From Pyrinomonadaceae bacterium (GTDB lineage Bacteria; Acidobacteriota; Blastocatellia; Pyrinomonadales; Pyrinomonadaceae): a stretch of 13,869 nucleotides of DNA. Positions 2,966 to 13,712 of this stretch are shown one piece after another. The translations under genes and the position numbers were made by a program. Where the stretch lies: NCBI GenBank assembly GCA_013812565.1, contig JACCTF010000101.1, positions 1-13,869 of the forward strand, read 5' to 3'. A model generated the notes under the pieces. That model saw only the letters and a list, made by a program, of their open reading frames with translations. It was not told the DNA's origin and ran no database searches. Positions within the stretch are counted from its first letter, which is position 1. Each line of letters begins with the position of its first letter.

Positions 2966-3193
2966 ATGAAACATGTCATCATACGATATTGCAGAGTTTG
3001 AGCTTCATTCCGTCCGCGAGCCGCCCGTGTGGCGGAGATGATTAAAACCGAACTCGGAATCGAAGCGGAGTTGCAGGAGGGCGACCGAGGCGAGTTTACT
3101 GTGCGGGTAGATGACAAGGTCGTTGCCAAGAAGGGCTGGCTCAGATTCCCGCAAAATGAAAAGGTCCTCGCTGCCATCCGGCAGGAACTCTGA
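2966..3193 (+). CDS. SelW-like Rdx-family selenoprotein with CxxU motif (in-frame UGA at codon 12)
   Basis: 75 codons from ATG 2966 to TGA 3191-3193, read through one in-frame TGA at 2999-3001. AGGAG lies seven bases before the ATG. The N-terminus reads MKHVIIRYCRV-Sec-ASFRPRAA, so Cys9 and the TGA at codon 12 form the CxxU redox motif of the SelW/SelT/SelH (Rdx, PF10262) thioredoxin-like family. Everything after the TGA also fits the family: PRAARVAEMI helix, GDRGEFTVRV strand, VVAKKG hairpin, RFPQNEKVLAAI end. Length and layout match bacterial SelW-like proteins. Family members are small cytosolic thiol/selenol redox proteins; the partner here is unknown. A GC-rich stem-loop at 3021-3035 fits a bacterial SECIS element. 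Alternative: a Cys homologue with one nonsense mutation, but there is no other damage and the next gene shows the same pattern. An internal ATG at 3038 would lack the active site. Confidence 0.85.
2999..3001 (+). other. Predicted selenocysteine UGA codon (Sec12 of SelW-like protein)
   Basis: This TGA is in frame and falls three residues after Cys9, at the second redox position of the Rdx motif, where family members have Cys or Sec. TGA is also the true stop of this gene and of several others in the window, so reading it as Sec would need local context (the hairpin downstream), not a changed genetic code. Confidence 0.83.
3005..3041 (+). promoter_or_regulatory. Candidate bacterial SECIS element of the SelW-like gene
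   Basis: An upper stem CCGCC (3021-3025) pairs with GGCGG (3031-3035) around the loop CGUGU (3026-3030). An outer helix UCAUU (3005-3009) can pair with GAUGA (3037-3041). The loop begins 24 nt after the UGA and has G as its second base. As I recall the bacterial SECIS consensus, the apical loop lies roughly 16-37 nt from the UGA and has a G in its first two positions; this hairpin fits. A competing pairing, UCCGC (3013-3017) with GCGGA (3032-3036), is possible. The element lies inside the coding sequence, as usual in bacteria, where SelB binds it. Confidence 0.68.
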
Positions 3194-3296
3194 TTGGTTG
3201 AGGGTCATGCTACCGGGCTGGCTTAGGTGCACCACCCGCGACAGATGTGATTGAGCCTTCCGAGATAACGGCCGCCGTGAAAAGAGGTGAGCAGGA

Positions 3297-3710
3297 GTGG
3301 GCGAATTTCGCCAGACACATGTCACAAGCCGCAAGCACTTGATGATTTACGACGGTGCTTGAGGCATGTGACGGCGCATGGCTGTCTGGGTCAGACGGCG
3401 CGACATACATCACGAGTTTGATGCGGTGGCCTATCAAGATGCGCCTCGGATCATATCCTCGCCGCCGTTGACGCCGGAACTGCTCGAAGCATGTCAGCGA
3501 GCGGTGCACGTTATCAAGACAAACGGCGAGATCTTGCGCGCCGGGCGGGCGACGTTGTTCATCTTGGAGCGCATTGGGTGGGGATACGGTCTGCTGCCGC
3601 GCGTGATCGCGCAACCGCCGTTCATCTGGTTCACAGAAATCGGTTACCGAATGGTCGCACGCCACCGTTCGTTCTTCTCACGCTTCCTCTTTAAAAACAG
3701 TGGCAAGTGA
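3297..3710 (+). CDS. DCC-family (DUF393) thiol-disulfide oxidoreductase with UxxU active site (two in-frame UGAs)
   Basis: 137 codons from GTG 3297 to TGA 3708-3710, read through TGA at 3360-3362 (codon 22) and 3369-3371 (codon 25). The active site reads YDGA-Sec-GM-Sec-RR then WVRRRD. This is the family signature DxxCxxC (Asp19) with both cysteines replaced. The rest is typical DUF393: AYQDAP, LTPELLEACQRAVHVI, GRATLFILERIGW, PFIWFTEIGYRMVARHR and a basic FSRFLF end. The family is thioredoxin-like; specific substrates are poorly known. GAGGTGA seven bases upstream supports GTG 3297. ATG 3342, one codon before IYDG, is the main alternative start. An ATG at 3378 gives an open 110-codon fragment but discards the motif. 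A strong hairpin at 3375-3402 suits both UGAs as a SECIS element. It lies about 100 bases after the SelW-like gene, so co-transcription is likely. Confidence 0.85.
3360..3362 (+). other. Predicted selenocysteine UGA codon (first Sec of UxxU)
   Basis: In-frame TGA at the first redox-cysteine position of the DxxCxxC signature, following IYDGA. The candidate SECIS loop begins 26 nt after this codon. Confidence 0.82.
3369..3371 (+). other. Predicted selenocysteine UGA codon (second Sec of UxxU)
   Basis: In-frame TGA two codons after the previous one (TGA GGC ATG TGA), at the second redox-cysteine position of the DxxCxxC signature. The candidate SECIS loop begins 17 nt after this codon. Confidence 0.82.
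3375..3402 (+). promoter_or_regulatory. Candidate bacterial SECIS element serving two UGA codons
   Basis: GCUGUCUG (3381-3388) pairs over eight consecutive positions, one of them G-U, with CAGACGGC (3392-3399) around the loop GGU. CGC (3375-3377) then pairs with GCG (3400-3402) across a three-base AUG bulge, giving 11 pairs. The loop starts with GG, like the GGU(C) loop of the E. coli fdhF element. It lies 17 and 26 nt after the two UGAs, both inside the usual bacterial SECIS distance. It is within the coding sequence and encodes AVWVRR of the family's conserved helix. Confidence 0.78.
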
Positions 3711-3878: not shown

Positions 3879-4349
3879 ATGCGTATCGCTATTGGAGCTG
3901 ACCACGCGGGTTACCCGCTCAACGAACAAGTGATCGAAGAAGTAAAGCGCTTGGGGCATGAAGTTGTAGACTTCGGCACGCACGACGGCGGGATCGGTGA
4001 CGACTACCCGGACTACGCGCGTCGGGTCGGCGAGTGCCTGCAGCAGGGAAAGGCGGAGCGCGGCATTCTGATCTGCGGAAGCGGCGTCGGCGCGTGCGTT
4101 GCCGCGAACAAACTTCACGGGGTGCGCGCCTGTCTGTGCCACGACACCTACTCGGCCCGTCAGGGCGTCGAGCATGACGACATCAACGTGCTTTGTCTCG
4201 GAGCAAGAATTATCGGCTTCGAGTTGGCGCTCGAACTGGTGCGTACATTCGTCGGAGCAAGGTTCACCGGCGAAGAACGGCACCTGCGCCGGTTGGCGAA
4301 AATAGCGAAGATGGAGAAGGCTTCGGTCGCCGACGCCGCGGGGCAGTGA
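3879..4349 (+). CDS. rpiB: Ribose-5-phosphate isomerase B
   Basis: 156 aa from ATG 3879. RpiB interconverts ribose-5-phosphate and ribulose-5-phosphate in the non-oxidative pentose phosphate pathway. The RpiB/LacAB signature is complete: IGADHAG at 5-11, catalytic Cys66 in ICGSGVG, then AANK, RACLCHDTYSAR, and His99 before the NVLCLGARIIG segment. Residue numbers match the well-studied E. coli enzyme. An in-frame TTG at 3870 would add three residues; ATG 3879 is preferred because MRIAIGADH is the family's normal start and GTAAGG lies about ten bases upstream. It opens the sugar-phosphate cluster and supplies the step after Gnd. Related LacA/LacB galactose-6-phosphate isomerases share the fold, but the pentose phosphate neighbours favour RpiB. 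Confidence 0.95.
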   Translation: MRIAIGADHAGYPLNEQVIEEVKRLGHEVVDFGTHDGGIGDDYPDYARRVGECLQQGKAERGILICGSGVGACVAANKLHGVRACLCHDTYSARQGVEHDDINVLCLGARIIGFELALELVRTFVGARFTGEERHLRRLAKIAKMEKASVADAAGQ

Positions 4350-4422
4350 GTTGGAAGCACGAAACACACACCGCGTGATGCTTATATTTTGGGACTTACA
4401 TTTGGGCAGGGGGCGCTAAGCA

Positions 4423-5208
4423 GTGAAGGCGGTTTGTCTCCACACCAAAAGCGATATTGATGCGTTTCTTCGTCGTCACACTTTTCTTCATCTATTTGCT
4501 ATCGGAGACTTGGACGATTTCTTTTGGCAGTACACAACATGGTATGCGCTCAAAGATAACGAGCAAATCAAAGAAATCGTTCTGCTGTACACTGGCACGG
4601 CTCTGCCAACTTTGCTCGGCCTCACAGGGGAGCCCGCAGGTTCAATGCGAGAGTTGCTGCAGTCCGTCATGCATCTTTTGCCGAAACGGTTTTATGCGCA
4701 CTTCAGTGGAGACTTGGCGGCTGTGTTCGCGGAGAGTTACCGTGTGCAGTCGCATGGTGAGTATTACAAGATGGCTCTGACGGATGAATTACTACTAAAT
4801 GATATTGACACCTCGGAAGTGATAGGGTTGTCCCAATCAGATGTGAGCGACTTAGAAGGCTTGTACCGTGCGAGCTACCCCGGAAACTGGTTTGATCCGC
4901 GCATGCTGGAGACAGGGTATTATTACGGCATCAAACGCGATGCCGACCTGGTCAGCGTTGCAGGCGTTCATGTCTATTCCCCAGTGTACAAGGTCGCAGC
5001 GCTCGGCAACATTACGACGCACCCTGACTTTCGGGGCCAGGGGCTTGCCGTGGCCGTTACCGCGAAGCTATGTAAATCTCTGTCGCCGACGGTTGATCAT
5101 ATCGGGTTAAACGTTAAGGCAGAGAACATGAGCGCACTCAGTTGCTACGAGAGATTGGGTTTCGAACGCATCGCCTCTTATCAAGAGTGTTCGCTCGTGT
5201 CACGTTGA
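4423..5208 (+). CDS. GNAT-family N-acetyltransferase
   Basis: 261 aa, start GTG 4423 with a G-rich stretch upstream. The C-terminal half (about 130-260) is a GNAT domain: NITTHPDFRGQGLA with the acetyl-CoA pyrophosphate-binding loop Arg204-Gly-Gln-Gly-Leu-Ala, then NVKAENMSALSCYERLGF at about 230-247, the usual beta5/alpha4 region. The N-terminal half (1-120) is divergent and may be a degenerate second GNAT-like fold or a substrate-recognition domain. It would transfer acetyl from acetyl-CoA to an amine; the acceptor is unknown. By eye its codons and dipeptides are more AT-rich than those of the flanking genes, which hints at a different history. It sits between rpiB and tal-pgi with gaps of 73 and 137 bases and a possible terminator behind it, so it is probably not part of the metabolic pathway. 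Confidence 0.88.
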   Translation: MKAVCLHTKSDIDAFLRRHTFLHLFAIGDLDDFFWQYTTWYALKDNEQIKEIVLLYTGTALPTLLGLTGEPAGSMRELLQSVMHLLPKRFYAHFSGDLAAVFAESYRVQSHGEYYKMALTDELLLNDIDTSEVIGLSQSDVSDLEGLYRASYPGNWFDPRMLETGYYYGIKRDADLVSVAGVHVYSPVYKVAALGNITTHPDFRGQGLAVAVTAKLCKSLSPTVDHIGLNVKAENMSALSCYERLGFERIASYQECSLVSR

Positions 5209-5218
5209 ATGAAACTAC

Positions 5219-5247
5219 TCGCGCATGTGTTACGCGAAACTTTTTTT
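5219..5247 (+). terminator. Possible intrinsic terminator after the acetyltransferase gene
   Basis: TCGCG (5219-5223) can pair with CGCGA (5233-5237) around a nine-base loop, followed after AAC by seven T (5241-5247). The stem is short, so termination may be weak. Its position eleven bases after the stop codon at 5206-5208 is suitable. Confidence 0.45.
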
Positions 5248-5345
5248 GCGGCCGAGCCGCCGGGGATTGATACTGCTGCTACTGAGTAACATAAGCTGCT
5301 TAAATGTTCATCAATCGAAATTGGTGCCTTTGAAAGGAACTGTTT

Positions 5346-8240
5346 ATGAAAACGAATCCATTGACTGAGCTACACAAATATGGTCAGAGCGTCTGGTATG
5401 ACCAGATGCGGCGCGCGCTGCTCACGGGCGGCGAACTAAAGCGCATGATCGATGAGGATGACTTACGCGGCGTAACATCCAATCCAACGATTTTTGAGAA
5501 GGCGATTGGTGGTTCAACCGACTACGACGAAGCGCTGGGCCAATTGGCCAATAATGGCGCAAGCGTTAATGACATCTATGAAGCTTTAGTAGTTGATGAC
5601 ATCGGGCATGCCGCCGATCTGTTTCTGCCCGTTTATCAGAAGACAGAGGGCGTTGATGGTTACATCAGCTTAGAAGTTAGTCCGGCGCTCGCGCACGATA
5701 CCGAGGGAACCATTGCCAGTGCTAAAAGCTTGTTCGCGCGACTCAACCGCCCTAACGTGATGATCAAGATACCGGCGACGCCCGAAGGACTGCCGGCGAT
5801 TGAGGAAGCGATTGCCGCAGGGCTAAATGTTAACGTCACGCTGATCTTCGCGCAGGACGTTTACGCAGCGGTCGCGGAAGCGTACATACGCGGACTCGAA
5901 CGACGCATGGCAGCGGGGCAGCCGATTGACCGCATCGCCTCGGTCGCAAGCTTCTTCGTTTCGCGCATCGACACTGCCGTTGACAAGCAACTTGAGGAGC
6001 GCATCCGCGAAGCGAAGACCGAAGACGAACGCTCGCGTTTGGAATCGCTGCTTGGTAAGACGGCAATTGCGAACGCGAAGATGGCATATCAAAAGTATAA
6101 AGAGATATTTGAAGGCGAACGCTTTGCTCAGGTGCGTGCTAAAGGGGCGCGTCCGCAGCGTCAGTTGTGGGCTTCAACCGGCACGAAGAATCCGAAGTTC
6201 TCGGATGTGCTCTACGTTGAATCGCTCATCGGGCCGGAGACGGTAAACACCGTGCCGCCCGAAACGCTGAATGCTTTTCGCGATCACGGACGAGTGCGCC
6301 CGACTTTAGAAGAAGGAATCGAAGAAGCCGGAACTGCGCTTCAGCAGTTAACGGAAGTCGGCATCAGCCTTGAGGCGGTGACGACGAAATTGACAGCCGA
6401 GGGCGTCAAGTCGTTCGCCGATTCGTTTGATAAGTTAATCGCGGTCATCAAAGAGCGACGCGATGCCGTGACGCAGAACCTGGTCGAGCGACGAACGGCG
6501 AAGCTTGGTCGATATGAGAAGAATGTTGCCGACACGCTCAAGCGGATGGAAGAAGAAAAGTTTGTCTCGCGCATGACAAGTAAGGACGCGAGCCTGTGGA
6601 AGAGCGAAGAAGCGCATGAAAAGATTATCAAGAACTCGCTCGGCTGGCTGACGGTCGTCGAGCAGATGCAGAAGCAGGCGAAGGATTTGAAAGAGTTTGC
6701 CGGTGAGGTGCGCAGTGCGGGATTCGAACACGTCGTGGTGCTCGGCATGGGCGGATCGAGTTTGTGTCCTGAAGTGCTGCGGCAAACATTCGGAAAGCTT
6801 AACGGCTTCCCGGAACTTCATGTGCTTGACTCGACGGTGCCCGCCGCAGTGCGTCTCTTGGAAGATCGGGTTGATGTGGCGAAGACGATCTTCATCGTCG
6901 CTTCAAAATCCGGCTCAACGGTTGAGCCGCAGATGTTCTATCGGTACTTCTTGAATCGCGTGCGCGAAGCGAAGGGCGAGCAGGCGGGCGAGAATTTCAT
7001 CGCAATCACAGACCCCGACACCCAACTGGCAGCGGAAGCGAACGGCGACGGCTTTCGGCGTGTGTTCCTGAATCCAGCCGACATCGGCGGGCGCTATTCG
7101 GCGCTTTCCTTCTTTGGGATGGTGCCCGCTGCGCTGATGGGAGTAGATGTTGAGGCGCTGCTCGACCGGGCTCTAGAGGCGGTCAATGCTTGCTCAGAGG
7201 TTGTTCCCGTCCAGGAGAATCCGGGCGCACGACTGGCCGCCATCCTTGGAGCGCTGACCCGTGAAGGACGCGACAAGGTAACCCTCATTACTCCGCCGCC
7301 GCTCGGTTCGCTCGGGCTGTGGATTGAGCAACTCGTTGCTGAGAGCACCGGCAAAGAGGGGAGAGGCATTCTGCCTATCGCGGGGGAGCCGCTCGGGTCT
7401 CCGGATGTCTATGGCGATGATCGGGTCTTCGTCCTCATCAGCATTGAAGATTCAACACCCGCCGAGATATTAGCTAAGTTGGACCAGTTCGAACACGCCG
7501 GGCACCCCGTGGTGCGCCACACGTTGCAATCTCCCTTGGACCTCGGTGAAGAATTCTTCGTATGGGAATTTGCGACCGCCCTTGCTGGTGCGCTGTTACA
7601 GATAAACTCTTTTGACCAGCCGAACGTGCAAGAATCGAAAGACAACACGCGGGCGTTGCTTCGAGAATTTTCAGTCAAAGGCGAACTGCCCCAGCAAACG
7701 GTTATCAGTGAAGATGGCGTGATGAAAATTTACGCCGACGAAGCAACTACGCAGTCGCTCGGAAGGGGCAGTGCTTCGCGATCAACGCTCGGCGAAACTT
7801 TCGCGCGGCATCTCGCAAGTGTTAAGGCTGGCGACTATGTTGCGCTGCTCGCATACATCGGGGAGACGCCTGAGCACAATGCAGCGCTCGAAGCGATACA
7901 AGCACAGTTGCGCGATGGATTGCGTGTCGCCACCACCGTCGGCTATGGTCCACGCTTTCTTCACTCCACCGGGCAGTTACACAAAGGCGGGGCAGGCAGC
8001 GGCGTCTTTATCCAAATCACAGCCGACGATAGCGCGGACCTACAGATCCCCGGCGAGCCTTTTACCTTCGGGGTGCTCAAGGCAGCGCAGGCGCTTGGCG
8101 ATTTCCAAGCGCTTGCGAGCCGCGAGAGAAGGGCCATTCGCGTTCATCTCGGACAAGACACGGCGGCAGGACTGAAGCAACTTCACGCACTTGTGCGAGA
8201 GGCAACGACGAAACAGACCGAAGCTACGGCAGCGGATTAG
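5346..8240 (+). CDS. tal-pgi: Bifunctional transaldolase / glucose-6-phosphate isomerase
   Basis: 964 aa fusion. The N-terminal transaldolase domain (about 1-370) moves a dihydroxyacetone unit between sugar phosphates. It has GVTSNPTIFEKAI at about 42-54, and Lys141 in NVMIKIPAT is the expected Schiff-base lysine. The C-terminal isomerase domain (about 430-950) interconverts glucose-6-phosphate and fructose-6-phosphate. It has GMGGSS at about 467-472, SKSGST at 520-525 binding the phosphate, and GGRYS at 581-585. A charged, helical stretch at about 370-430 links the domains. The length matches tal-pgi fusions known from other bacteria. ATG 5346 has AAAGGA about nine bases upstream. Together with zwf and gnd it allows carbon to cycle through the pentose phosphate pathway. 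Both domains look intact. Confidence 0.95.
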   Translation: MKTNPLTELHKYGQSVWYDQMRRALLTGGELKRMIDEDDLRGVTSNPTIFEKAIGGSTDYDEALGQLANNGASVNDIYEALVVDDIGHAADLFLPVYQKTEGVDGYISLEVSPALAHDTEGTIASAKSLFARLNRPNVMIKIPATPEGLPAIEEAIAAGLNVNVTLIFAQDVYAAVAEAYIRGLERRMAAGQPIDRIASVASFFVSRIDTAVDKQLEERIREAKTEDERSRLESLLGKTAIANAKMAYQKYKEIFEGERFAQVRAKGARPQRQLWASTGTKNPKFSDVLYVESLIGPETVNTVPPETLNAFRDHGRVRPTLEEGIEEAGTALQQLTEVGISLEAVTTKLTAEGVKSFADSFDKLIAVIKERRDAVTQNLVERRTAKLGRYEKNVADTLKRMEEEKFVSRMTSKDASLWKSEEAHEKIIKNSLGWLTVVEQMQKQAKDLKEFAGEVRSAGFEHVVVLGMGGSSLCPEVLRQTFGKLNGFPELHVLDSTVPAAVRLLEDRVDVAKTIFIVASKSGSTVEPQMFYRYFLNRVREAKGEQAGENFIAITDPDTQLAAEANGDGFRRVFLNPADIGGRYSALSFFGMVPAALMGVDVEALLDRALEAVNACSEVVPVQENPGARLAAILGALTREGRDKVTLITPPPLGSLGLWIEQLVAESTGKEGRGILPIAGEPLGSPDVYGDDRVFVLISIEDSTPAEILAKLDQFEHAGHPVVRHTLQSPLDLGEEFFVWEFATALAGALLQINSFDQPNVQESKDNTRALLREFSVKGELPQQTVISEDGVMKIYADEATTQSLGRGSASRSTLGETFARHLASVKAGDYVALLAYIGETPEHNAALEAIQAQLRDGLRVATTVGYGPRFLHSTGQLHKGGAGSGVFIQITADDSADLQIPGEPFTFGVLKAAQALGDFQALASRERRAIRVHLGQDTAAGLKQLHALVREATTKQTEATAAD

Positions 8241-8250
8241 AAGAAAGAAG

Positions 8251-8316
8251 GCAGTAGGCCCAAAAGCAGTAAGCAGCAAGAGGATTGTGTGTCGCACTTT
8301 ACTTACTGCCTACTGC
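8251..8316. repeat. Intergenic inverted repeat, GCAGTAGGC/GCAGTAAG units
   Basis: The left arm (8251-8273) contains GCAGTAGGC and GCAGTAAG. The right arm (8302-8316) reads CTTACTGCCTACTGC, the reverse complement of the two units joined. The left arm has about eight extra bases between its units. It lies in the tal-pgi to gnd gap and could form a hairpin in the transcript. Confidence 0.72.
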
Positions 8317-8359
8317 GTTTTCCCTGCTGCGGCTGATTATTGAGAGGAGCAAGAAACTA

Positions 8360-9847
8360 ATGTCAACTCCACAAATTGGAACTGCAGCGGCGCAGTTCGG
8401 CATGATGGGCTTAGCGGTGATGGGCGCAAACCTTGCCTTGAATGTCGCGGATCACGGTTTCGCGGTTGCCGTGTGGAATCGCGACGGCACGGTTACCGAT
8501 AACTTTACGGCGACGCACAATGGGAATAATCGGTTTACAGCGACGAAGACTTTTGAGGAGTTTGTGCAGGCGCTTGAGCGTCCGCGTCGCATCATGATGA
8601 TGATTAAAGCGGGCGCGCCCGTGGATGAAACCATTGCGCGCTTGAAACCTTTACTCGATGAAGGTGACATCTTGATTGACGGCGGCAACTCATGGTTCAA
8701 AGACACGCAGCGGCGCGAACAAACGCTCAGCCAGGAGGGTTTCAACTTCTTCGGATCGGGTGTTTCAGGCGGTGAAGAAGGAGCACGCTACGGGCCGAGC
8801 ATCATGCCGGGCGGGCGTCGTGAAGCTTACGAGTATGTGCGTCCGATCTTTGAAGCCATCGCTGCTCAAACTGATTCAGGCGCATGCGTCACATACATCG
8901 GGCCGGACGGGGCCGGACACTTTGTCAAGATGGTGCACAACGGCATCGAGTACGGTGACATGCAACTGATCGCCGAAGCTTACGACATCCTGCGTAGCTG
9001 TCTCGATATGGAAGCGACGGAACTCGCCGACACGTTCGCCGAGTGGAACCGTGGGCCGCTTGAATCTTTTCTCATCGAGATCACCTCGAAGATCTTCACG
9101 GTTAAGGATGAACAGACGGGGAAGCCTCTGGTCGATTTGGTGCTGGACAAAGCCAGACAAAAGGGAACGGGTAAATGGACGGCGCAAGTCGCGCTTGATC
9201 TAGGCGTTCCCATCCCAACGATTGCCGCGGCGATTGATGCGCGCGTGATGTCGAGCATGAAAGACGAGCGCGTTGCCGCAAACAAAAAGATTAAAGGAAC
9301 CAAGACGAAGCGCTTTAGAGGCGAGCGGGGGAAACTGATCACGGCGGTTCATGATGCGTTGTATGCCTCTAAGGTCTGCTCTTACGCACAAGGCATGGAC
9401 CTGATCGCGGCAGGCTCGCGCGAGTACAATTGGGACATCAACTTGCGGGAGACGGCGCGCATCTGGAAGGGCGGCTGCATCATCCGCGCACGCTTCCTTG
9501 ACACGATCATGCAGGCTTATGAGCGCACGCCCGAACTACCAAACCTCCTGCTCGATGTCGAACTGGGGCCGAGCATTCAAAAGGCGCAGAGCGCGTGGCG
9601 TTATGCTGTAACCACTGCGCAGACGCTTGGCATCCCCGTCCCGGCGATGTCTTCGTCGCTCGCCTACTTCGATTCATACCGCACTGCAAACCTGCCGCAG
9701 AACTTGACGCAGGCACAGCGCGACTTCTTCGGCGCGCACACTTACGAACGCGCCGATAAATCTGGACAAGGCTTTGTGCATACTGACTGGACGAAGCTCG
9801 TCAGAGAAGAACAGCAAACTGGGGAGAGACGAGAAGAGGAGGTGTGA
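8360..9847 (+). CDS. gnd: 6-phosphogluconate dehydrogenase, decarboxylating
   Basis: 495 aa from ATG 8360. It oxidatively decarboxylates 6-phosphogluconate to ribulose-5-phosphate, producing NADPH and CO2. The N-terminal cofactor fold reads FGMMGLAVMGANLA at 13-26; IDGGNSWF and FFGSGVSGGEEGARYGPSIMPGG are the substrate-binding region; Lys190 in KMVHNGIEYGDMQLI is the catalytic lysine. The C-terminal helical domain includes WKGGCIIRARFL. The length matches the long, dimeric form of the enzyme. An in-frame GTG at 8285 would add 25 residues from repeat DNA and is rejected; ATG 8360 has AGGAG ten bases upstream. The stop overlaps the zwf start by one base (TGATG), so the two are translationally coupled. 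Confidence 0.96.
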   Translation: MSTPQIGTAAAQFGMMGLAVMGANLALNVADHGFAVAVWNRDGTVTDNFTATHNGNNRFTATKTFEEFVQALERPRRIMMMIKAGAPVDETIARLKPLLDEGDILIDGGNSWFKDTQRREQTLSQEGFNFFGSGVSGGEEGARYGPSIMPGGRREAYEYVRPIFEAIAAQTDSGACVTYIGPDGAGHFVKMVHNGIEYGDMQLIAEAYDILRSCLDMEATELADTFAEWNRGPLESFLIEITSKIFTVKDEQTGKPLVDLVLDKARQKGTGKWTAQVALDLGVPIPTIAAAIDARVMSSMKDERVAANKKIKGTKTKRFRGERGKLITAVHDALYASKVCSYAQGMDLIAAGSREYNWDINLRETARIWKGGCIIRARFLDTIMQAYERTPELPNLLLDVELGPSIQKAQSAWRYAVTTAQTLGIPVPAMSSSLAYFDSYRTANLPQNLTQAQRDFFGAHTYERADKSGQGFVHTDWTKLVREEQQTGERREEEV

Positions 9848-11454
9848 TGTCTTCGATCACTGAGGTAGCGGAGGCCGCGCCGCCACCAGCCGTTAAAGCT
9901 CACGAAGCAACAGCGACGCCGGCAACTGTCCTTCAAGGACAGCCACAGCAAGCTAAGTTGCCGCAAACCGATCCCTGTACCATCGTCATCTTCGGGGCCT
10001 CGGGCGACCTGGCACGGCGCAAACTTATTCCGGCCCTTTACAATCTCGCCTGCGAAGGCTGCACGGGAAACCGCTTCCATGTGCTTGGAATAGGGCGCAC
10101 GCATCTGAGCGACGAAGACTTTCGCGCTCAGATGCGAGATGCGGCGGCAACTGCGAAGGATACGCGTGATTTCAACGAAGAATCGTGGGCGAGGTTTGCT
10201 CCGCGTCTAACGTACATGATCGGCGATCCGAACGACGACGGCCTGCTGCATGAACTCGCCGCGCACCTAGATCACATGCGTGAGGAAAGCGACATCAGCC
10301 CCAACACGCTTTTTTACCTTTCGACGCCGCCCTCCGTTGCGCCAAACATTATCCAAGGCTTAGGAGCCGCAAGCCTGACTGAAGAGAAAGAAGGTTATCG
10401 GCGCATCATCATCGAAAAACCGTTCGGGAGTGACTTGAATTCAGCGCGTCAACTAAACGAAGTGGTGGCCCGTGTCTTCGACGAGCATCAGGTCTACCGC
10501 ATCGACCATTACCTCGGCAAAGAGACCGTGCAGAACATCCTCGTCTTTCGCTTCGGTAACTCGCTGTTCGAGCCTGTATGGAACCGCAACTACATCGACT
10601 ATGTTGAGATCACTGCTGCTGAGACCCTCGGCATCGGCGGGCGCGCAGGCTACTACGAAGAAGCAGGCGCGCTCCGCGACATGGTCGCCAACCACTTGTT
10701 GCAACTGCTCTGCTTGACGGCGATGGAACCGCCGGTAGCCTTTGATGCTGATTCGGTACGTGAAGAAAAGGTGCAGGTGTTGCGCGCGATTCGCCCGATG
10801 TCCGCCGAAGAGTTACGCACACGCACAGTGCACGGGCAGTATGCGGCAGGCAAAGTCGGGAGCGAGGATGCGGTTGCCTACAAACAAGAGAAAGGCGTGC
10901 GGCCGGGTTCAGCGACGGAGACTTACGTGGCGTTGGAGTTTCGCATTGAAAATTGGCGTTGGGCCGGTGTGCCGTTCTACGTGCGTACAGGGAAGCGACT
11001 CGCGCGCTCTGTGACGGAGGTCGCAGTGCATTTCAAACGCACGCCGCAAGCATTGTTCGCACGCACACCGGATGCGCAGATCGAGCCGAACGTCATCGTC
11101 CTACGCATTCAACCGGATGAAGGCATCAGCCTCGGCATCGACGCAAAGCTGCCGGGTACAGAGATGCAAACCGGCACCGTGCGGATGGACTTCTCTTACA
11201 GCAAAGGCTTCGGGGTGCGCTCGCCCGCCGCGTATGAAACTCTGTTGCTCGATGCGATGCAGGGTGATGCGACGCTCTTTACCAGGCGCGACGAGGTCGA
11301 AGCCGAGTGGAAACTAATCACACCGATTGAAGAAGCATGGGCGAGGAGTGAGTCAGCGCCGCCGCTCGCCACGTATGCTTCGGGAAGCTCAGGCCCAGCC
11401 GAAGCCGATCAGATGCTCGCGCGCAATGGTCACAACTGGCGACCACTCGGTTAA
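9847..11454 (+). CDS. zwf: Glucose-6-phosphate 1-dehydrogenase
   Basis: 535 aa from ATG 9847. It oxidises glucose-6-phosphate to 6-phosphogluconolactone with NADP(H), the entry step of the oxidative pentose phosphate pathway. Motifs: nucleotide-binding GASGDLA at 50-56, EKPFG at 190-194, substrate-binding RIDHYLGKE at 218-226, and the catalytic His283 in MVANHLLQ, 62 residues after His221 as in characterised enzymes. The first 40-45 residues are an Ala/Pro-rich extension before the fold, longer than usual and probably disordered. AGGAGGT ends just before the start; GTG 9844 is an alternative that adds one residue. It overlaps gnd by one base. The C-terminus ends normally with DQMLARNGHNWRPL. 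Confidence 0.96.
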   Translation: MSSITEVAEAAPPPAVKAHEATATPATVLQGQPQQAKLPQTDPCTIVIFGASGDLARRKLIPALYNLACEGCTGNRFHVLGIGRTHLSDEDFRAQMRDAAATAKDTRDFNEESWARFAPRLTYMIGDPNDDGLLHELAAHLDHMREESDISPNTLFYLSTPPSVAPNIIQGLGAASLTEEKEGYRRIIIEKPFGSDLNSARQLNEVVARVFDEHQVYRIDHYLGKETVQNILVFRFGNSLFEPVWNRNYIDYVEITAAETLGIGGRAGYYEEAGALRDMVANHLLQLLCLTAMEPPVAFDADSVREEKVQVLRAIRPMSAEELRTRTVHGQYAAGKVGSEDAVAYKQEKGVRPGSATETYVALEFRIENWRWAGVPFYVRTGKRLARSVTEVAVHFKRTPQALFARTPDAQIEPNVIVLRIQPDEGISLGIDAKLPGTEMQTGTVRMDFSYSKGFGVRSPAAYETLLLDAMQGDATLFTRRDEVEAEWKLITPIEEAWARSESAPPLATYASGSSGPAEADQMLARNGHNWRPLG

Positions 11455-11458
11455 CAAG

Positions 11459-11583
11459 AGTTCAAGGTTCAAAGTTAAATGTCCAAAGTCAAAACACCAA
11501 AGTCGTAATATACAGTCGGTAAACGTCGGCTGTGATTATCGATTGCGCACTTTAGACCTTGAACTTTGAACCTTGAACTTTGT
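11459..11583. repeat. Intergenic inverted repeat, GTTCAAGGTTCAAAGT family
   Basis: The left arm (from 11459) reads AGTTCAAGGTTCAAAGTTAA and continues with related TCCAAAGTC units. The right arm (about 11550-11583) reads CTTTAGACCTTGAACTTTG followed by AACCTTGAACTTTG. The reverse complement of the right arm matches the left closely. It fills the zwf-to-HAD gap. The closing bases of the window (GGACTTTGGACTT, 13852-13864) resemble its units and may start another copy. Confidence 0.75.
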
Positions 11584-11595
11584 CAGGTTTGACGG

Positions 11596-12408
11596 ATGCC
11601 CATCTCGCTTGTCATTTCAGATGTGGATGCCACCTTGCTGACGCCCGAGCACAAGGTGACAGAGCGCTCAATGCAGACGGTGCAGAGGCTACATAAGCAT
11701 GGCATTCTCTTCACAGTCGCCAGTTCGCGCCCGCCGCGCGGTCTCCTCTCCCTGGTCAAGACGTTCGGTTTACGCGAGCCGTTTGCCGCCTTCAACGGAG
11801 CAATCGTGCAACTGGCTGATGGTAAAACTTTGATCCGACATGTGCTCTCGCCCAGCGTCTGCGAGCATGTGCTCGGCATCTGCGAACGCTTCGGACTTGA
11901 GCTGTGGATTTACTGCGACCACGACTGGCATGTCGCGCGTCACACGCCCTTCGTCGCGCGCGAGGAACGCACCATCGGCTTTAATGCGCGGCTCGAATCC
12001 GATTTGCGCAAGTGGCTTACGCGTGCGACGAAGCTGACGGTGGTGGGTGATCCCTTGATTGTGGCACAAGCCGAGATTGCGGTGTTGGCGGAAATCGGAA
12101 GCTGTGTGTCGGCGACAAAATCCAGGCCGCGCTATATCGACATCACCGCGCGCGAGGCGCACAAGGGGACGGTCGTCACGCAACTCGCGAGCGTCTTGCG
12201 CATTCCGACCAGAGAGATTGCGGTCATTGGAGATGGGTTCAACGACATCTTGATGTTCGAGCGTGCGGGCGTGAGCATCGCGATGGGCAACGCCGGGCCG
12301 GAGGTTCAGGGAGCCGCGAGGCATGTGACCGCAGGCAACACACATGAGGGCTTTGCCCGTGGGATCGAAGATTTCGTACTGCGTCCGAACAATTCAAATA
12401 AGGGGTAA
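11596..12408 (+). CDS. Cof-type HAD-superfamily phosphatase
   Basis: 270 aa. HAD phosphatases of the Cof/YidA type dephosphorylate sugar phosphates and related metabolites. Motif I is SDVDATLLTP, with nucleophile Asp9 and acid/base Asp11; the usual glycine after Asp11 is alanine. VASSRPPRG at about 41-49 is motif II. A C2-type cap occupies the middle. IGDGFNDILMF (Gly212-Asp213, Asn216-Asp217) is motif IV, binding magnesium, followed by GVSIAMGNAGPEV, a very typical Cof ending. ATG 11596 follows the inverted repeat closely and lacks a strong ribosome-binding site. It lies between zwf and gntK, so a pentose phosphate or gluconate phosphate intermediate is a reasonable but unproven substrate. 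Confidence 0.92.
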   Translation: MPISLVISDVDATLLTPEHKVTERSMQTVQRLHKHGILFTVASSRPPRGLLSLVKTFGLREPFAAFNGAIVQLADGKTLIRHVLSPSVCEHVLGICERFGLELWIYCDHDWHVARHTPFVAREERTIGFNARLESDLRKWLTRATKLTVVGDPLIVAQAEIAVLAEIGSCVSATKSRPRYIDITAREAHKGTVVTQLASVLRIPTREIAVIGDGFNDILMFERAGVSIAMGNAGPEVQGAARHVTAGNTHEGFARGIEDFVLRPNNSNKG

Positions 12409-12450
12409 GTTTATGGAGATAAGTCGCAGGCGATTAGTAAAGGACCTCGT

Positions 12451-12933
12451 ATGATCGTCGTCCTCATGGGCGTTACCGGATCAGGCAAAACGACGGTTGG
12501 TGAGGTGTTGGCGGCCCAACTGGGATGGCAGTTCTGCGACGCTGATAATCTTCATCCAGCCCAGAACGTTGAAAAGATGCGTCGCGGCATACCGCTCACG
12601 GATGCGGACCGCATACCGTGGCTCGAAGCTCTCAGCAATTTCGTACGCGAATGCCTTAACCGCAATGAGAGCGCCGTCATCGCCTGCTCTGCATTAAGAG
12701 TTCTCTACCGCCGGTATCTACTGATTGACGAGACGGTCAAGCTTGTCTACCTCAAGGGGGAGTTCCATCTTATCGAAAAAAGACTTGGCGAGCGGCGCGG
12801 ACACTATATGAATCCAAAGCTTCTACAAAGTCAGTTCGATACGCTGGAGGAGCCGGAAGACGGCATCACGGTTGACGTTGCACCGAGTCCAGAAGAAATT
12901 GTGCGGACGATCAGGAGCGAACTCGGCCTGTAA
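12451..12933 (+). CDS. gntK: Gluconokinase (shikimate-kinase-like type)
   Basis: 160 aa, the normal size for GntK/IdnK-type gluconokinases, which phosphorylate D-gluconate to 6-phosphogluconate with ATP. The Walker A motif is GVTGSGKTT at 7-15 with Lys13. The diagnostic gluconate-binding stretch DADNLHPAQNVEKMRRGIPL follows at about 30-50, then DADRIPWL; ACSALRVLYRRYL and the LGERRGHYMNPKLLQSQFDTLEEP region complete the family pattern. AAAGGA lies six bases before ATG 12451. It is 42 bases after the HAD gene and 20 before pgl, so these probably form one transcript. It provides an entry for free gluconate into the pathway. Confidence 0.96.
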   Translation: MIVVLMGVTGSGKTTVGEVLAAQLGWQFCDADNLHPAQNVEKMRRGIPLTDADRIPWLEALSNFVRECLNRNESAVIACSALRVLYRRYLLIDETVKLVYLKGEFHLIEKRLGERRGHYMNPKLLQSQFDTLEEPEDGITVDVAPSPEEIVRTIRSELGL

Positions 12934-12953
12934 GAGATGACAAGGATAATAAG

Positions 12954-13712
12954 ATGTCAGCTTTGTCAGAAATCGAAGTTATTATCCGCGAAGATAAAGA
13001 TGCGCTCGCCATTGCGGCGGCCGCGCGCTTCGTGGTTGCGGCAGAGGAAGCCACTATCAATCGCGGCAGCTTTCGAATCGCGCTTGCCGGTGGCTCGACT
13101 CCGCGAACTCTTTACGAACTGCTCGCCGGTGACGAGTGGCGCGAGCGTGTTGCATGGAACAAGACGCACGTATTCTGGGGCGACGAACGTCACGTGCCGC
13201 CTGATCACGCCGATAGTAACTATCGTATGGCGCAGGAAGCTTTGCTCGCCCGCGTGCCGGTGCCAAGCGAAAACATCCACCGCATCAAGGCCGAACAGAC
13301 CGACGCGCCGGGAGTGGCATCAGAGTATGAAGAAACTCTACGCGAATCTTTTCAGTTGGAAGCCGCCGAGTTGCCGTGCTTTGATCTCGTGCTGCTCGGC
13401 ATGGGAGCGGACGGACACACCGCATCGCTGTTCCCAAACACAGACGCACTGCAAGCCTCAGAGAATCGTCTCGCTGTTGCGGTATGGGTCGAGCAATTCG
13501 CACAGCACCGTATTACGCTGACGCTGCAGGTATTGTCGAACGCCCGGTGTGTGATGTTTCTTGTTGCCGGTGAAGATAAAGCGGAGACGCTGCGCACGGT
13601 GCTTGATGAAACACAAGATCGGCGTCTTCCGGCAGGACTTGTTCGCCCTACGGCAGGCAAGCTGGTATGGTTGGTAGACAAAGCAGCGGCGAGCTTGCTA
13701 CAGCAAAATTAG
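12954..13712 (+). CDS. pgl: 6-phosphogluconolactonase (DevB/SOL type)
   Basis: 252 aa. It hydrolyses 6-phosphogluconolactone, the product of Zwf, to 6-phosphogluconate. Motifs: LAGGSTPRTLYELL with GGSTP at 46-50, WGDERHVPPDHADSNY with GDERH at 76-80, and LGMGADGHTASLFP at about 148-161, where His155 is the expected catalytic residue. The C-terminal LTLQVLSNARCVMFLVAG segment is typical of the NagB-like fold. AAGGA lies seven bases before ATG 12954. It is the last gene seen of the gntK group, and only about 20 bases separate it from gntK. Length and motifs are those of a complete enzyme. Confidence 0.95.
   Translation: MSALSEIEVIIREDKDALAIAAAARFVVAAEEATINRGSFRIALAGGSTPRTLYELLAGDEWRERVAWNKTHVFWGDERHVPPDHADSNYRMAQEALLARVPVPSENIHRIKAEQTDAPGVASEYEETLRESFQLEAAELPCFDLVLLGMGADGHTASLFPNTDALQASENRLAVAVWVEQFAQHRITLTLQVLSNARCVMFLVAGEDKAETLRTVLDETQDRRLPAGLVRPTAGKLVWLVDKAAASLLQQN

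Follow-up and report, generated by a model that had tools for sequence, protein, structure and literature searches.

The window analyzed here is the whole 13,869-nucleotide (nt) stretch of contig JACCTF010000101.1 from a Pyrinomonadaceae bacterium, and it contains a gene of the DCC family (PF04134, YuxK) that is interrupted by two TGA codons. Are these codons disabling mutations, or do they encode selenocysteine (Sec, U) at both catalytic positions of the active site? The gene product is very probably a small, presumably thioredoxin-like thiol/selenol oxidoreductase that has Sec in place of each of the two active-site cysteines, giving the motif DxxUxxU. This reading is supported by the conserved double UGA at the catalytic positions, by selection on the protein on either side of these codons, and by the presence of Sec machinery.

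Translated with TGA as U, the segment from 3297 to 3710 yields a 137-residue protein that contains U22 and U25; the terminal TGA is at 3708–3710. The motif region of this protein is ...RKHLMIYDGAUGMURRMAVWVRRR... An earlier note on this DNA had placed in-frame TGA codons at both cysteines of the DxxCxxC motif (3360–3362 and 3369–3371), and this is borne out by the translation; the two codons are the only in-frame stops inside the gene. The GTG at 3297 is the probable start codon, with the ATG at 3342 as the alternative, and the sequence AGAGGTGA at 3283–3290, 6 nt 5′ of the GTG, is a candidate ribosome-binding site. For the comparison with Pfam, U was entered as C. Residues 17–128 match PF04134 (DCC1-like thiol-disulfide oxidoreductase) with a score of 57.7 bits (cut-off of 27.8), and the alignment spans profile positions 2–111 of 113. 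The statement that the flanking residues match the family in an otherwise open frame thus holds as well. PF04134 is the sole Pfam match at E ≤ 0.1, and no NCBIfam match was obtained at E ≤ 1. The family motif appears as D19-G-A-U22-G-M-U25 and is found only when Sec is counted as Cys; by comparison with the CxxC relatives, U22 and U25 occupy both Cys places. The SDR, Rdx, RpiB, GNAT, and Gnd genes of the window are also terminated by TGA. Because TGA ends ordinary neighboring genes, it is not globally reassigned, in keeping with the earlier proposal of recoding rather than a changed code.

A structure model was obtained for the DCC protein with a pLDDT of 79.6 and a pTM of 0.71. The model contains a strand at residues 14–18 and a helix at residues 23–35, which would place U22 and U25 at the start of the helix. 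Comparison of the model with known folds returned GST, Grx, and Trx matches, all of them weak. The search of solved structures by sequence gave one PDB match with an E of 0.69, which was taken as chance.

The DCC protein was compared with 97 related genomes, including its own (G000), and matches 28 places in 27 of them (E ≤ 1e-3). Exactly two TGA codons are found in each of the three best matches, which are the own gene and those of two relatives from other genera (G014 and G007), and none in the other 25 places. The identity to the window protein is 71% for G014 and 56% for G007 in the table from this search, and 68% and 58%, respectively, in the aligned proteins. The TGA codons of the three genes share two alignment columns. 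A class-level search with a three-row profile returned matches in 15 of 162 genomes (E ≤ 1e-8), with TGA in the same three genomes only. The motifs of the three loci are YDGAUGMUR, YDGAUGMUR, and YDGAUSLUR, such that the residues between the TGA codons vary from GM to SL and the TGA codons are constant.

The block MIYDGA before UGA1 is invariant across the three proteins, and the codons right before UGA1 show synonymous changes (GAC/GAT, GGT/GGC, and GCT/GCG). Since these adjacent codons differ synonymously, the stretch upstream of UGA1 is under protein selection too. The pairwise nonsynonymous rates (dN) are 0.24, 0.35, and 0.41, against synonymous rates (dS) of 1.25, 1.02, and 1.42, for a dN/dS of about 0.2–0.35. 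To judge from these sequences, the three double-TGA genes are under purifying selection and are not decaying.

Wider searches were made for additional members. In a phylum sample of 396 genomes, four match at E ≤ 1e-20, namely the own genome and three CxxC genomes (G216, G459, and G478). When the search was extended to 41 genomes from the class of G216 and 148 from that of G478, only G216, G459, and G478 were returned, and no further Sec genes were found. The G459 stretch contains one TAA with one set of ends and none with slightly different ends. A scan of genome contigs with the part of the protein after UGA2 returned two loci, L038 with CxxC and L039 with a broken frame; no new Sec gene emerged. 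From a scan of viral contigs, 30 pattern matches were obtained and none was confirmed as a Sec gene. Of the homologue forms that the earlier note had proposed to look for (UxxU, UxxC, and CxxU), UxxU occurs in G014 and G007; the forms observed at the DNA level were UxxU and CxxC alone, with no UxxC or CxxU. The argument that a chance pair of nonsense mutations is unlikely gains from the two other genera that share both TGA columns and from the dN/dS, and no other in-frame stop is present in G014 or G007.

The genes for Sec insertion, which the earlier note had proposed to look for, are present in the source genome. SelA was detected with 455 bits. SelB was examined in the own genome only and identified through its wing domain (SelB-wing_2) alone, with 44.6 bits (cut-off of 22.3), within an open frame of 665 residues. 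The tRNA-Sec scores 70.6 bits (cut-off of 47) and has the anticodon TCA as read by ARAGORN; it is located at L002 (G000:C500), positions 556–650, close to the start of the contig. SelD is found as two pieces at contig ends (L075, which is G000:C38, and G000:C1033), and the first piece contains one internal TGA. Both G007 and G014 have SelA, SelD with one internal TGA, and tRNA-Sec above the cut-off. SelD thus looks like a selenoprotein itself in the own genome, as in G007 and G014. SelA is present in 95 of the 97 relatives and is therefore a permissive background rather than a correlate of the DCC gene.

A hairpin downstream of the two codons is a candidate selenocysteine insertion sequence (SECIS). 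Its loop starts 17 nt past UGA2 and 26 nt past UGA1. For comparison, the loop of Escherichia coli fdhF contains GU about 20 nt after the UGA. Within the hairpin, the three Sec loci share the 15 bases GTCTGGGTCAGACGG without a difference, despite protein identities of 68% and 58%. This segment uses AGA for Arg, a codon found at 12 of 260 Arg positions when ten other genes of the window are counted. Where residues are identical, the codons are also identical in 5/6, 9/10, and 5/6 cases by pair for the 12 codons after UGA2, and in 33/66, 33/53, and 29/49 cases further downstream. An automatic hairpin picker returned the 3381–3399 type in four of six DCC rows; in the other two (DCC_G000 starting at UGA2, DCC_G007 starting at UGA1) it preferred other structures. 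The comparison comprises three Sec loci, a number of sequences that cannot yield covariation, and there is no Rfam match within the window. The hairpin likely represents a SECIS serving both UGA codons, a proposal drawn from sequence comparison and still unproven.

Protein databases were searched for homologues of the DCC protein. The first search gave 66 clusters at E ≤ 1e-8, and a second, profile-based search gave 665 clusters at E ≤ 1e-15, 120 of which were listed, for a combined set of 168 clusters. Among the 168 listed, DGxCxxC is present by pattern in 122, and three more were seen by eye to have CxxC with another residue after D. In another 24 the first residue is the Met that follows U2 by three codons (Met28), three start at Met-Cys, and 16 start further downstream. 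One of the 24 Met28 starters, P0013, is the G014 gene cut at this Met and is identical to the G014 protein over the region used for the tree. The Met28 starts match what a gene caller would produce when UGA is taken as a stop; the other clusters are known as protein only, for which contig ends or other starts are possible.

The tree was constructed from 54 rows and 102 columns with a midpoint root, using the three Sec genes and, from the first search, the 51 clusters of at least 98 residues (15 shorter clusters of the 66 were omitted). One group of 28 rows brings together the three Sec genes, 21 Met28 starters (P0013 among them), three CxxC clusters, and one other row; the three Met28 starters outside this group sit among the CxxC rows. 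Mapped on the tree, the Met28 label requires 9 changes versus a shuffled mean of 18, and none of 500 shuffles is as low. The CxxC trio (P0005, P0007, and P0008) is 66–73% identical to the window protein, and the support is 99/90 for the trio and 95/83 for the 15 rows that contain it. The trio falls inside the group of 28 rows with the Sec genes, a placement that suggests a joint change of the two residues, in one direction or the other. The trio may represent a reversion, or the Sec state may have arisen more than once.

Other late starts were observed among the clusters. P0040, P0050, and P0057 start at Met-Cys, between the motif positions, and are possible UxxC forms with TGA at the first position only. 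The DCC clusters P0049, P0052, P0053, P0055, and P0059–P0069 start still further downstream, often at MTPxL, and four clusters of this set (P0049 to P0069) are on contigs of 10–79 kb. This set may represent a further group of DCC genes with Sec that have no start codon closer to the active site, or may simply consist of odd gene calls.

The group of 28 rows in the tree is weakly supported (84/67). Several results speak against taking the hairpin by itself as proof of a SECIS. Codon identity upstream of UGA2 is nearly as high as that downstream (6/8, 6/8, and 5/7), and the counts near the UGA codons are small. Random synonymous recodings equal the hairpin energy in 47, 16, and 60 of 300 cases, and the 61-nt stretch has a z-score of −1.17, a value matched by 24 of 200 shuffles. 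Among four CxxC homologues, one has an equally stable hairpin and one a nearly equal hairpin. Hairpin energy was rejected as a stand-alone proof of the SECIS, being modest relative to synonymous recodings and shuffles, and synonymous-codon conservation was rejected as a clean proof, being high upstream of UGA2 as well.

It is extremely unlikely that the TGA codons are disabling mutations or errors of a draft sequence. The source assembly consists of 1103 contigs at 90.7% completeness, and TGC or TGT is converted to TGA in a single step, but the identical TGA pair in two other genera, the frame without other stops, and the dN/dS noted above all argue for an intact gene. A variant code or a suppressor tRNA that would have UGA read as Trp or some other amino acid is hardly credible. 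In-frame TGA codons do appear in three inspected genes of the own genome (DCC, Rdx, and SelD), but ordinary genes here end in TGA, a tRNA-Sec with the matching TCA anticodon is present, and the TGA codons are located at Cys/Sec positions of redox families.

The mechanical list of open reading frames contains a 110-residue frame at 3378–3710 that starts at the ATG after UGA2. Its product would lack the active site, the upstream part would be a remnant, and the 24 listed clusters that start at the same Met are compatible with it. This is very unlikely to be the real product, considering that the MIYDGA block is kept with synonymous changes across three genera, that the CxxC homologues bear the whole motif, and that G007 has ACG at this Met and does not retain the proposed start. 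It is also unlikely, though less so, that only one UGA (probably the second) is read efficiently as Sec, with the first giving mostly termination or another residue and UxxU being formed in part. The second UGA is nearer the hairpin loop, but both TGA codons are conserved equally. In addition, the best hairpin loops in four relatives of the upstream Rdx/SelW-like gene (L058, L060, L063, and L065) begin 21–24 nt past the UGA, such that a longer spacing may work here, although those hairpins are unproven too.

The protein with Sec at both positions is most similar to known DCC/DCC1-like/YuxK proteins (PF04134, DUF393) in its whole-domain match and motif spacing, with CxxC database relatives of up to 73% identity, and differs in that both motif Cys are replaced by Sec-encoding UGA. 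The bacterial UxxU protein SelL, described by Shchedrina et al. in 2007, reportedly has one downstream SECIS for either or both Sec insertions, and a diselenide is said to have been shown in the protein. SelL has UxxU at the CxxC position, as does the window protein, but it belongs to a different family, which is Prx-like by name matching to a review listing versus PF04134 here; no PF00578 (Prx-like) homology was found for the window protein at E ≤ 0.1. The upstream neighbor is a CxxU member of SelW/Rdx (PF10262), a different Pfam family from DCC.

A prokaryotic selenoprotein inventory from 2026 contains 119 families or subfamilies by its own count (PMC13188914). The accessible portion of its Table 1 has no entry for DCC or PF04134, and no DUF393, DCC, pfam04134, COG3011, or YuxK appears in the accessible text of PMC9312934, in agreement with the earlier note, which knew of no described DCC-family diselenide protein. 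The UxxU entries seen in the inventory are a Prx-like thiol:disulfide oxidoreductase (PF00578), a metal-binding/mercuric reductase-like protein (NF041115), and an FmdB-like protein (TIGR02605). UxxU also occurs in a Prx-like family (PMC2398784) and in SELENOW of Ostreococcus and amphioxus (PMC7539508). All of these proteins have the same Sec spacing in a CxxC-type motif but other domains. The accessible parts of PMC12013277 include one Acidobacteriota genome in a table and no DCC or DUF393 in the text. No DCC/DUF393 selenoprotein was found in the searched literature, from which most subscription papers, preprints, and U-annotated GenBank records were outside the scope. UxxU is known elsewhere, and the DCC version is a new selenoprotein family of the known UxxU type. 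The full proposal of an unlisted family with a double-Sec, diselenide-forming DCC site, both UGA codons on one SECIS, and Cys/Sec switching jointly in evolution is favored by a slight balance of probability.

In the proposed mechanism, SelB with Sec-tRNA would decode both UGA codons, and one downstream hairpin would direct both insertions. The two selenolates, which the model places at the start of the first helix, may then alternate between the reduced state and an oxidized one, either a diselenide or a selenenyl form bound to substrate. The protein would reduce disulfides or peroxides, or exchange them, with a partner. An unusually low redox potential of the diselenide center, as suggested earlier, is plausible chemistry.

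The coordinates of the features in the window are presented in Table 1.

Table 1. Positions of the DCC gene, the upstream Rdx/SelW-like gene, and their candidate signals in the window
Feature	Position	Strand	Basis
Rdx/SelW-like CxxU selenoprotein gene, Sec at 2999–3001	2966–3193	+	PF10262 38.5 bits, cut-off 22.6
Possible SECIS hairpin of the Rdx gene, CCGCC-CGUGU-GGCGG; tentative	3020–3035	+	Best hairpin in relatives L058, L060, L063
DCC-family (PF04134) selenoprotein gene (very probable), presumed GTG start, two in-frame TGA, TGA stop	3297–3710	+	Translation, Pfam
UGA codon 1 (Sec22), first Cys position of DxxCxxC	3360–3362	+	Kept in L011, L012
UGA codon 2 (Sec25), second Cys position of DxxCxxC	3369–3371	+	Kept in L011, L012
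Candidate SECIS hairpin, 8 pairs, loop GGU at 3389–3391	3381–3399	+	Folding, three-locus comparison

The window carries two consecutive selenoprotein genes, Rdx and then DCC; neither the adjacent Rdx/SelW-like gene nor the candidate SECIS was mentioned in the earlier note. The Rdx protein begins with MKHVIIRYCRVU... and its NCBIfam scores are 33.5 bits for TIGR02174 (just below the cut-off of 34.2) and 56.3 bits for NF041051 (below the cut-off of 88). The protein matches 18 places in 17 of the 97 genomes, own included, with one TGA in all 18, and the TGA was observed within CxxU in the 10 loci inspected. The pairing of the two genes is not conserved: the Rdx gene of G014 is on a different contig from its DCC gene, and no Rdx gene was found in G007 in the search of the 97 genomes. 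The Rdx hairpins of L058, L060, and L063 have the loop CGUGU or CGUGC, and the minimum-energy fold of the window's own gene differs. The hairpin picker gave no row for L057 and L059, the wrong CxxU place for L061, L062, and L064, and other folds for L066, L067, and the window Rdx gene; two of five SelD rows were at wrong places, and no hairpin counts are claimed for Rdx or SelD.

Downstream of the DCC gene, RpiB is adjacent both here and in G007 (L068), and not in G014 (L069). A carbohydrate cluster extends over 3879–13712 and contains RpiB, GNAT, a 964-residue transaldolase/glucose-6-phosphate isomerase fusion, Gnd, Zwf, a HAD hydrolase, a GntK-like kinase, and 6-phosphogluconolactonase. GNAT, HAD, the kinase fold, and 6-phosphogluconolactonase were named by Pfam and the others, RpiB included, by reading of the sequence. 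The genes assigned by this reading to pentose phosphate metabolism (RpiB, Tal-Pgi, Gnd, Zwf, and Pgl) would supply NADPH, a connection that is suggestive at best.

Such a family is easily missed because gene calls cut at least one member (G014, as P0013) just after the active site. The UxxU protein and its close CxxC sisters form a natural pair for comparing a diselenide with a disulfide in one scaffold, and the two Sec codons nine bases apart provide a case for how one bacterial hairpin might direct both insertions. If the proposal is correct, the DCC protein would be among the few natural diselenide families, and its place beside a SelW-like gene could mean that these bacteria have a redox system rich in selenium to which it belongs.
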